A stretch of 64,000 nt of DNA from Psychroserpens mesophilus (GTDB lineage: Bacteria; Bacteroidota; Bacteroidia; Flavobacteriales; Flavobacteriaceae). Location: assembly GCF_000826645.1 (NCBI RefSeq), contig NZ_JXJP01000030.1:1-64000 (forward strand), in the 5' to 3' direction. Shown here in pieces: positions 32 to 2,537 of the stretch. The translations under genes were made by a program, and so were the position numbers. Under the pieces are notes generated by a model. It had not been told where the DNA came from. It saw nothing but the letters and a program-made list of their open reading frames with translations, and made no database searches. Within the stretch, counting starts at the first letter, position 1. The number at the start of each line of letters is the position of its first letter.

Positions 32-1036
32 TTAAGCGTCACCCTTAATGAGTGCCCTTACTTTGTCTTCAAGTTCATCCATTAATTCAGGATTATCTTT
101 AATTAATGCTTTAACGGCATCTCTCCCTTGACCGAGTTTGGTTTCACCATAACTAAACCAAGAACCACTTTTTTTAATAATTTCGTGTTCAACTGCTAAA
201 TCTAATACTTCACCTACTTTTGAAATTCCTTCACCATACATGATGTCAAACTCACACATTTTAAAAGGTGGCGCAACTTTGTTTTTTACTACTTTAACTC
301 TTGTTTTATTACCTGCTACATTGCCATCAGTTTCTTTAATTTGAGTAGATCGTCTAATATCTAGTCTTACAGAGGCATAAAATTTTAAGGCATTTCCACC
401 AGTAGTAGTTTCGGGATTTCCAAACATCACACCAATTTTTTCTCTAAGCTGATTAATAAAGATTACTGTGCAATTGGTCTTGCTAATAGAACCCGTTAAT
501 TTTCTCAATGCCTGAGACATTAAACGAGCGTGAAGTCCCATTTTAGAATCTCCCATTTCACCTTCAATTTCACTTTTTGGTGTCAATGCCGCAACAGAAT
601 CTATCACCACAATATCTATAGCTCCAGAGCGAATTAAATTATCGGCAATTTCAAGCGCTTGTTCACCATTGTCTGGTTGAGAAATGATAAGATTATCAAT
701 ATCAACTCCTAATTTTTCTGCATATGTTCTATCAAAAGCATGTTCAGCGTCTATAAAAGCAGCTATACCTCCAGCTTTCTGTGCTTCAGCAATGGCATGA
801 AGTGTTAATGTGGTTTTACCAGAAGATTCTGGTCCGTAAATTTCAATCACTCTTCCTCTTGGATAACCTCCAACACCTAATGCAATATCTAGCCCTAAAG
901 AACCAGAAGAAATGGCGTCAACATCAACGACTGCCTGGTCGCTCATTTTCATAACGGTTCCTTTTCCATAGGCTTTATCAAGCTTATCTAAGGTTAATTT
1001 TAAGGCTTTTAATTTGGCTTCTTTTTCACTACTCAT
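32..1036 (-). CDS. recA: Recombinase RecA
   Basis: RecA is the ATP-dependent strand-exchange protein of homologous recombination and the co-protease of the SOS response. The 334-residue product has the usual RecA length. The Walker A loop GPESSGKTT starts near residue 68, and the core motifs [18 protein letters not shown] and [18 protein letters not shown] follow in the expected order. The start MSSEKEAK matches the N-terminal helix expected before [10 protein letters not shown]. The gene is transcribed leftwards from a probable promoter at 1065-1095 and is divergent from trhO. No LexA box was recognised. Identification is secure. Confidence 0.99.
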
Positions 1037-1095: not shown

Positions 1096-1211
1096 TCTTC
1101 TGACGCAACCTTTTTAAACATTTTGCATCTACCAATTGAGATTGGGAAATCTTGCTATGAAAAAGGTCAGTTACATGACGTATCCACTTAAATTAAATTC
1201 TAATAATTAGA

Positions 1212-1304
1212 ATGAGATTTTTTAGAAAAATTATTTTTAACAACGCATTAGGTATTACAGTTACCGTACATATAAACAGTAACTGTAAAGCCGATGGTGG
1301 CTAA
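1212..1304 (+). CDS. Possible 30-codon peptide in structured intergenic region
   Basis: An ATG at 1212 opens 30 codons (MRFFRKIIFN at the start, a single Cys near the end, and C-terminal ADGG), ending in TAA at 1302-1304. A 17-codon ORF (1157-1210) ends one base before this ATG. The N-terminus is basic and hydrophobic. No family was recognised. The coding stretch contains a 9-bp inverted repeat (1256-1264 with 1279-1287), so the segment may be RNA rather than coding. No consensus promoter was seen upstream. Coding status is doubtful. Confidence 0.25.
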   Translation: MRFFRKIIFNNALGITVTVHINSNCKADGG

Positions 1305-1397
1305 CTCGTAAAATATTTTTAAGATCAAATTAAAAATATTAATAACGAGTTAGTCTGTAAAAAAAGCACTTTGGATAACCCATAAGTGCTTTTTTGT
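1256..1397 (+). ncRNA. Candidate structured RNA: two stem-loops plus terminator
   Basis: Three inverted repeats follow one another. The first is TACAGTTAC (1256-1264) with GTAACTGTA (1279-1287), a perfect 9-bp stem. The second is a two-part stem, CTAACTCGT (1301-1309) with ACGAGTTAG (1345-1353), enclosing AATATTTTTAA (1312-1322) with TTAAAAATATT (1330-1340). The third is a rho-independent-like hairpin, AAAAAAGCACTT pairing with AAGTGCTTTTTT, ending near 1395. The arrangement resembles a short terminated transcript. No known RNA family was recognised, and the strand is inferred from order and from the T-run. Confidence 0.35.
1359..1396 (+). terminator. Intrinsic terminator (bidirectional form)
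   Basis: An A-run plus GCACTT, a loop of about 13 bases, then AAGTGC followed by six T. It would stop rightward transcription just before the trhO promoter. The flanking A-run and T-run allow function on either strand. Confidence 0.7.
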
Positions 1398-1408
1398 TGT
1401 TTTATATT

Positions 1409-1436
1409 TTGATACTCAATGCTTTTTCTATCTTTG
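1409..1436 (+). promoter_or_regulatory. trhO promoter (TTG-N17-TATCTTTG)
   Basis: TTG at 1409-1411, exactly 17 bases, then TATCTTTG at 1429-1436 is a full match to the Bacteroidota sigma-ABfr consensus TTG-N17-23-TAnnTTTG. It lies 36 bases upstream of the trhO ATG and immediately after a terminator. Confidence 0.75.
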
Positions 1437-1472: not shown

Positions 1473-2537
1473 ATGCAACTGTACAATAACTTAAGTGCTA
1501 AAGAAAGAGCAGAACTTATCGAGAAAGCGGGAAAAGACCGCTTAACAATCTCTTTCTACAAGTACGCCAAAATTGGTAATACCGAAATTTTTAGAAACCA
1601 TATGTTTTTAGCCTGGAACGATTTAGATGTTCTTGGAAGAATTTATGTAGCTAAAGAAGGCATCAATGCCCAACTATCAGTTCCAGCTGAAAATTTCCAA
1701 AATTTTAAAAATCACCTGGATACTATTTCTTTTTTAGAAAACGTAAGATTAAACATCGCTATTGAGCATGATAATTTTGCTTTTTTAAAGTTAAAAGTTA
1801 AAGTGCGTCACAAAATTGTTGCTGATGGATTAAATGATGATACTTTTGATGTAACTAATAAAGGAATTCATGTTAATGCTGAGACTTTTAACTATTTAAT
1901 TGAAGATCCAAATACCGTTTTGGTAGACATGCGAAATCACTATGAAAGTGAGATTGGGCATTTTAAAAATGCAGTGACTCCAGATGTTGATACGTTTAGA
2001 GAATCGTTAGATTTAATTGAAGAAGACCTCAAGGAACACAAAGAAGATAAAAATCTGGTGATGTATTGCACTGGCGGAATTCGTTGTGAAAAAGCGAGTG
2101 CTTACTACAAGCACAAAGGGTTTAAAAAGGTGTTTCAGCTTGAAGGAGGTATCATCAATTATGTAAGACAGGTTGAAGCTAATGATTTAGAAAATAAATT
2201 TATTGGAAAAAACTTTGTGTTTGATGAGCGTCGTTCTGAGCGAATTTCTGAAGATATCATTGCCAATTGTCATCAATGTGGTCAACCTGCAGATTTACAT
2301 ACCAATTGTGCAAATGAAGCTTGTCATTTATTATTTATTCAGTGTGATGACTGTAAAGAACAAATGGAAAATTGTTGTTCTTCAAATTGCATGGAAATAA
2401 ACAGATTGCCTTACGAAGAACAAAAGGAACTGCGAAAAGGACAAGGTAATAGTAATGATATTTTTAAAAAGGGAAGAGCAGATCACCTACCTTATAAAAA
2501 AGACTTAAGAAACATTTTTGAAGTATTAAAGAAATAA
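1473..2537 (+). CDS. trhO: tRNA uridine(34) hydroxylase TrhO (rhodanese family)
   Basis: TrhO (YceA family) carries out oxygen-dependent 5-hydroxylation of wobble uridine 34 in tRNA. The 354-residue product has an N-terminal acylphosphatase/ferredoxin-like domain (KEGINAQLSV), a central rhodanese domain whose active-site loop MYCTGGIRCEKA carries Cys199 and Cys205, and a C-terminal Cys-rich segment with several CxxC pairs (CHQCG, CDDC, CCSSNC), probably a metal site. The gene stands alone behind a good promoter at 1409-1436. A 65-codon ORF in another frame at 2203-2400 is a shadow. Family assignment is secure; the enzymatic role is taken from characterised homologues. Confidence 0.95.
   Translation: MQLYNNLSAKERAELIEKAGKDRLTISFYKYAKIGNTEIFRNHMFLAWNDLDVLGRIYVAKEGINAQLSVPAENFQNFKNHLDTISFLENVRLNIAIEHDNFAFLKLKVKVRHKIVADGLNDDTFDVTNKGIHVNAETFNYLIEDPNTVLVDMRNHYESEIGHFKNAVTPDVDTFRESLDLIEEDLKEHKEDKNLVMYCTGGIRCEKASAYYKHKGFKKVFQLEGGIINYVRQVEANDLENKFIGKNFVFDERRSERISEDIIANCHQCGQPADLHTNCANEACHLLFIQCDDCKEQMENCCSSNCMEINRLPYEEQKELRKGQGNSNDIFKKGRADHLPYKKDLRNIFEVLKK

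Follow-up and report, generated by a model that had tools for sequence, protein, structure and literature searches.

What occupies the stretch between recA and trhO in Psychroserpens mesophilus, and does it serve the gene downstream of it or stand on its own? The window (the whole 64,000-nucleotide stretch of DNA that was analysed) begins with recA on the minus strand (32..1036; TIGR02012, PF00154), followed by trhO on the plus strand (1473..2537; NF001133, score over the cut-off), both identities being confirmed with Pfam and NCBIfam. An earlier note on this DNA had described three inverted repeats between the two genes, and all three are where it had put them: 1255-1267/1276-1288 (13 nt, 92% complementary), 1301-1320/1334-1353 (20 nt, 75%; both its 11-bp inner stem, 1312-1322/1330-1340, and its outer stem, CTAACTCGT/ACGAGTTAG, are perfect) and 1360-1371/1384-1395 (12 nt, 100%, with a run of T at its end). 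The two tiny ORFs that it had placed in front of these repeats also exist, one of 17 codons (1157-1210) and one of 30 (1212-1304), except that the first hairpin sits within the 30-codon ORF and not behind it. Positions 1137-1400 fold at -74.2 kcal/mol, whereas shuffled sequences average -41.6 (sd 4.1; z -7.9, reached by none of 200 shuffles), and positions 1240-1400 alone give a z of -9.2, again reached by none of 200. The segment is real, conserved and much more structured than shuffled sequence.

The arrangement suggests a short transcription unit of its own, about 260 nt long, in the order ECF-type promoter, structured leader, 30-codon ORF, hairpin at the stop codon and terminator. The intrinsic terminator (1360..1395, plus strand), correctly recognized in the earlier note, has a perfect 12-nt stem followed by a T run, and a terminator-like hairpin stands at the matching place in 74 of 75 relatives; the miss, L091, has a hairpin there by eye. 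A terminator scan for loops of 3-8 nt left 1360-1395 unlisted, its loop being 12 nt. The earlier note could assign the unit to no family, and Rfam likewise has no gathering-score match to it, whether in the window or in 11 related loci; permissive thresholds brought up nothing credible either, the ten sub-threshold matches in the window included. Among the papers that our search of the open-licence PMC literature listed, none could be tied to the unit, and this gene of about 260 bases between recA and trhO is apparently previously undescribed.

The 30-codon ORF (1212..1304, plus strand; peptide MRFFRKIIFNNALGITVTVHINSNCKADGG) is, judging from its conservation and its selection at the protein level, a small-protein gene. 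Its product has a basic start, a moderately hydrophobic middle and an invariant end, the C-terminus NS[SN]CKADGG being nearly invariant over the genus genomes and the named loci. Eight residues (M1, N22, S23, C25, K26, D28, G29 and G30) are the same in all 65 distinct named peptides; in a first set of 22 peptides N22 varies (one reads SSHCKTDGG) and the other seven are invariant. With all pairs among 62 full-length sequences taken together, and uncorrected for kinship, pN is 0.192 against a pS of 0.470 (pN/pS 0.41), which points to purifying selection on the protein and is the outcome that the earlier note had named as favouring a peptide. The last nine codons, under the same pooling and equally uncorrected, are far more constrained (pS 0.575, pN 0.028, pN/pS 0.05), and the two other frames give pS and pN of 0.256 and 0.244 (ratio 0.95) and of 0.338 and 0.222 (ratio 0.66). 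Mean column entropy in these nine codons is 0.026, 0.124 and 0.746 at first, second and third positions, a third-position excess matched in 2 of 10000 column shuffles. ORF length over 75 loci is 30 codons in 61, 28 in 13 and 29 in one. Pfam, NCBIfam and PADLOC returned 0 matches for the two peptides tried (those of the window and of L145), PHROGs a single match with an E of 0.2 for the L145 peptide, and the peptide profile found nothing among PDB chains.

The peptide gene keeps a fixed position in all the named loci. When 57 genomes were searched at the DNA level, most of the unit was matched in each of the 23 genus members, the window's own genome included, and in the sister-genus genome G027, and four further genomes gave short matches; named records place the genus near Psychroserpens. 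All 24 oriented loci (L001-L024, from the 23 genus genomes and G027) have a 30-codon ORF ending in C-K-[A/S/T]-D-G-G. No such ORF was found at L025 and L026, which belong to two other genera, and the DNA-search matches L027 and L028 are without a recA or trhO match. A profile search of 299 genomes of the family gave matches in 81 at E <= 0.05 and in 49 at E < 1e-6, and a sample of 395 genomes from across the order gave 7, all from the same family, of which 6 are credible. The seventh, a weak match at L167, was set aside as probably fortuitous, since its reading frame ends ahead of the DGG tail and its surroundings are not those of the unit. Most of the Flavobacteriaceae would appear either to do without the peptide or to carry it in a form beyond detection. 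Among the named genomes scanned, 75 Flavobacteriaceae loci carry it, including Psychroserpens, Olleya, Lacinutrix, Winogradskyella, Mangrovimonas, Xanthomarina, Flavivirga, Hanstruepera and Bizionia. The gene is divergent from recA in 75/75 of these loci, and trhO is next downstream of the unit in 73/75; in the remaining two, the L150 sequence runs out 255 nt past the gene and L142 has no trhO within 3 kb. Distant homologs also adjoin recA, one ending in CRVDGG (L187) and two in CKIDGG (L165 and L166, both with an apparent TTG start).

The message itself seems to be under selection as well, as indicated by compensatory changes, although few pairs contribute them and a single clade accounts for part; changes of this kind had been named in the earlier note as support for an RNA. 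The hairpin inside the coding sequence (1246..1296, plus strand, 19 pairs) was examined for covariation in 51 sequences. Its cells are paired in 90.7% of cases, as against 19 to 64% when the pairing is slid, but with shuffled partners the figure is still 89.0%, as the high value is largely due to conserved columns. What speaks for pairing is covariation: change on both sides was counted in 38 cells, where shuffles give 8.0, and the score is reached by none of 500. Weaker measures are unexceptional, with four pairs that show change on both sides (reached by 34 of 500 shuffles) and 19 further pair types (reached by 216 of 500); pair 46-75 is unpaired in 46 of the 51 sequences. The G-C to A-U exchanges join the first bases of codons 17, 18 and 19 (V/I, A/T and V/I) to the wobble bases of codons 24, 23 and 22. 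A role of Ala codon 27 (GCC in 58/62) as a sensor of tRNA modification was considered and given up, since this GCC is paired with GGY where the hairpin has its base.

A further hairpin (1299..1355, plus strand, arms 1299-1309/1345-1355) begins at the last codon and the stop codon. Arms of one sequence pair with each other at -12.42 kcal/mol, permuted arms at -10.66 (0/5000; 59 distinct pairs with 14 distinct 3' arms), and own pairing beats cross pairing in 636 of 767 comparisons, a signal that comes in large part from one group (L113-L116, L120, L122, L124, L128, L133 and L157) in which relatives are counted repeatedly. In the structured 5' leader (1137..1211, plus strand; the start near 1137 follows from the promoter motif), arms with their own partner score -8.25 against -7.26 when permuted (0/5000) in a set of 57 leaders from which 16 had been dropped for a missing anchor and others for shortness or a missing promoter; the leader appears to covary more weakly than the later hairpins. 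RNAalifold on MAFFT alignments proposed 9 pairs with one both-side change in the 3' region and none in the 5' region. We think that gap placement split the hairpin arms in these alignments, and the anchored comparison of arms was used instead for that reason. Five loci, including three distant ones, were also folded singly, and each fold has hairpins both inside the coding sequence and downstream of the stop codon. As in a dual-function small RNA, a structure that seems to be under selection thus accompanies a peptide here, with the reservation that the sequences compared are related.

The 17-codon ORF (1157..1210, plus strand), the other tiny ORF of the earlier note, is a different matter. 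Only its start and first lysines are conserved, nothing being kept beyond MKK(K), and it was rejected as a peptide. Over 76 loci its length, frame and distance to the 30-codon gene are variable, and its start is ATG in 57, GTG in 11, absent in 3 and the peptide's own start in 4, with the promoter not found in the remaining locus; in those four the peptide itself begins at the mini-ORF start site. Five loci (L095, L099, L102, L105 and L121) have about 130 nt extra between leader and peptide, and these inserts share a GTGTGCGACTTAGTT-like stretch and a possible second promoter of sigma-A-like type.

Upstream of the leader, and of the start given in the earlier note, from which it is absent, lies a promoter motif of ECF type, ACGCAACC-N14-GCATCTA (1103..1131, plus strand). 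It is present on the unit side in 74 of the 75 peptide loci. A sigma-70 scan gave 3 sites against 3.4 expected, none of them useful. A loose version of the ECF-type pattern finds 15 sites in the window's own genome and 14 in the related genome G012, against 2 and 5 for a reversed control; the exact GCAACC-N14-GCATCT occurs six times each in G000 and G012, and a longer pattern with <=3 mismatches has 8 sites in G012 and 0 for its reversed control. Besides the unit, the sites stand before genes for lipoproteins, SusC-like proteins and other exported or outer-membrane proteins, the exception being L041 (one of the six exact G000 sites), with no evident envelope gene downstream. The unit, the neighbouring lipoprotein gene and other envelope genes were thus found to have this promoter in common. 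At three loci upstream of recA (L176, L177 and L179) the motif is kept and the leader and ORF look decayed (e.g. ATGAAATTTACCTAA), as if the peptide had been lost.

A copy of the motif also precedes the lipoprotein gene across recA, which is followed by an ECF sigma gene (sigma-70 regions 2 and 4 are clear) and then by a gene whose 530-aa product has what look by eye like a transmembrane helix and a long low-complexity tether, as well as a beta-barrel match (E 1.7e-4) that falls short of the Pfam cut-off. These sigma, anti-sigma-like and lipoprotein genes lie at L206:10622-13271 in the window's own genome, where their adjacency to recA is inferred because they end contig C6 and recA starts contig C24, and at L205:1781-4340 in G012, where the cluster is seen adjoining recA. 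Their layout resembles that of Dma with its ECF21 sigma partners, the Dma/Das system of Bacteroides thetaiotaomicron with a dual-membrane-spanning anti-sigma factor: compared by layout, both appear to have a sigma gene beside an anti-sigma-type gene whose product combines an N-terminal domain, one transmembrane stretch, a long tether and a C-terminal beta-barrel match, and both have an exported lipoprotein alongside (PMC13088901, available in part). Unlike the recA-abutting locus with its unit described here, that system has no small peptide or RNA output named in the available portion of the same source (PMC13088901).

The ECF sigma gene, the lipoprotein gene and the lipoprotein-side motif each accompany the peptide in 73/75 loci. 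One exception, L151, has sequence only as far as the contig end; the other, L127 (Mangrovimonas xylaniphaga), keeps the peptide and is missing sigma and lipoprotein within 3 kb, and at the place of its -10 element reads ACAACT where other loci have GCATCT or ACATCT, a possible case of joint decay of sigma, lipoprotein and -10 element. A second set of 31 recA loci from other genomes (30 genomes without a confident peptide match, 28 of them with recA in 29 loci, plus L165 and L166) shows the unit-side motif in 12 of the 18 loci with sigma adjacent, the other six being without it, and in 0 of the 11 loci without sigma. This count goes by the position of the motif, leaves out a match at L192 that lies 1.1 kb from recA, and includes two loci of one genome among the 11; at L165 and L166 the motif is present and the stretches end too early to show sigma. 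The matching of sigma to promoter is suggested by adjacency and co-occurrence, a pattern that common ancestry would also yield.

As the best explanation we propose, with rather more confidence than doubt, that the unit is a small-peptide gene belonging to the neighbouring ECF envelope-stress regulon and carried on a folded message. The ECF sigma factor encoded beyond recA would drive its transcription; a Dma-like anti-sigma partner would restrain sigma until envelope stress releases it; and folding could stabilise the short message and limit or time its translation. The least certain step is that the peptide, located in or at the membrane, might serve as effector or feedback element of the envelope response.

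Much the same observations could be read with the emphasis on the RNA, in that the unit would be a dual-function or mainly regulatory small RNA acting on other messages, with the peptide secondary. This is how the enterobacterial sigma-E-dependent small RNAs MicA, RybB and MicL work, by antisense pairing with other messages; like them, the unit would be a short terminated transcript (predicted here) in an envelope-stress ECF regulon, and unlike them it has a conserved ORF that fills about one third of the transcript. The very stable fold and the compensatory changes in the hairpins suit this reading, as do six peptide-less loci upstream of recA (L181-L184, L186 and L188), which keep the promoter, a GCTATGAA-like core in an apparent hairpin and the terminator, and in which no CKADGG peptide was found. 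Their hairpins pair GGTCATTT with AAATGGCC, or variants of these, around a GCTATGAAAAAG-like core (the pairing was computed for three of the loci and judged by eye for the others), and they may represent a second type of unit that is perhaps a small RNA. We keep an RNA function open because of these six loci. However, the strongest conservation of the unit is at the protein level, in its last nine codons, and the arms of the stop-codon hairpin co-vary between clades, so that no fixed pairing seed is found there; a mainly regulatory RNA is the chief rival and a minority reading, plausible and not probable.

A bolder and equally tentative proposal unites the two: the unit could be a dual-function RNA family, the first in Bacteroidota, under Das/Dma-like ECF control, whose RNA would regulate envelope messages and whose peptide would feed back on two-membrane signalling or on the membrane, with coding and folding co-selected and with one branch that would have become peptide-less and kept the RNA. 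SgrS/SgrT and RNAIII are dual-function RNAs with small peptides, and the unit is like them in being a structured short RNA with a conserved peptide; it differs in having a hairpin within the coding sequence and bears no sequence relation to them.

The nature of the peptide allows for a special case of the small-peptide gene, overlapping with it in likelihood and by itself unlikely, in which the peptide would serve as a lipoprotein signal and leave a lipopeptide of six residues, C[KR]xDGG. The basic start, the hydrophobic stretch and the invariant cysteine six residues from the end would fit, the distant homolog L165 reads VSSC, and the other targets of the motif are largely lipoproteins. Yet 112 lipoprotein-like ORFs picked by rule have N at -3 in 2, N at -1 in 2 and S at -1 in 100, whereas N stands at -3 in the peptides and at -1 in 31/62 of them. 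Their core looks weak, hydrophobicity being 1.7 to 2.7 in six peptides, to be set against a comparison set that is biased, having been pre-filtered at >2.2. The peptide was not filed as a lipoprotein because this lipobox is atypical.

The other part of the earlier note's interpretation, a leader acting on trhO, fares worse than the structured small transcript with a putative real peptide, which stood. A leader-peptide attenuator would have the ORF, the hairpins and the terminator in the right place upstream of trhO, but the terminator closes the unit and trhO has its own sigma-A-type promoter, read from the TAnnTTTG box (TATCTTTG; 1429..1436, plus strand), which stands <=80 nt from trhO in 68/73 relatives against 3.8 expected from shuffles. 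The unit is moreover kept at L142, L165 and L166, in whose available stretch trhO does not come next; in the latter two, what follows is presumably a PLP-enzyme gene, and it has a SAM riboswitch of its own. By eye, the stop-codon hairpin and the terminator have no common arm sequence between which to switch. YceA is the older name of TrhO. An ECF-type promoter (SM6) is listed for YceA in Flavobacterium psychrophilum (PMC9723704), hence before the same downstream gene, and an older link between ECF sigma factors and trhO is possible for that reason; unlike the promoter described here, SM6 has a CGT box at -10, and the available part of that source lists no peptide or small RNA there (PMC9723704). 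An attenuator of trhO is disfavoured and very improbable. At L182 and L183 a U32/TrhP-like gene adjoins the unit (L208:5081-6322 and L209:3814-5055; the protein, cut at the stretch end, scores under the NCBIfam TrhP cut-off), bringing two putative tRNA U34 hydroxylase genes together; a link of the unit with both enzymes was rejected, the gene being an insertion in conserved synteny, since trhO lies just beyond. After trhO, at 2573-2645 of the window, an inverted repeat of the TGTCACATTGAGCGCAGTCGAAATG type was noticed by eye and resembles a dispersed repeat.

Hardly to be expected, finally, is a small membrane peptide of type I toxin kind, for which the size, the basic and hydrophobic composition and the structured message might speak, as such toxins are usually scattered, and the peptide gene is found at one syntenic site in 75/75 named loci, behind an ECF promoter.

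With the small-peptide gene of an ECF envelope-stress regulon as the preferred reading, the recA-trhO unit would give the Flavobacteriaceae, a large family in which small proteins and small RNAs are little charted, a small protein and RNA that are so far unlisted, occupy a fixed address, and come with a defined promoter and a likely sigma factor. If the coding hairpin is as predicted, its V/I and A/T changes, matched by synonymous changes across the helix, would make it a neat natural case of selection for protein and RNA on the same bases. The Das/Dma pathway of Bacteroides controls vesicle formation, and in the portion of the source available the action of its outputs is left open (PMC13088901). 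The peptide described here is a short, strongly conserved candidate for such an output, encoded near the sigma gene and directly testable.
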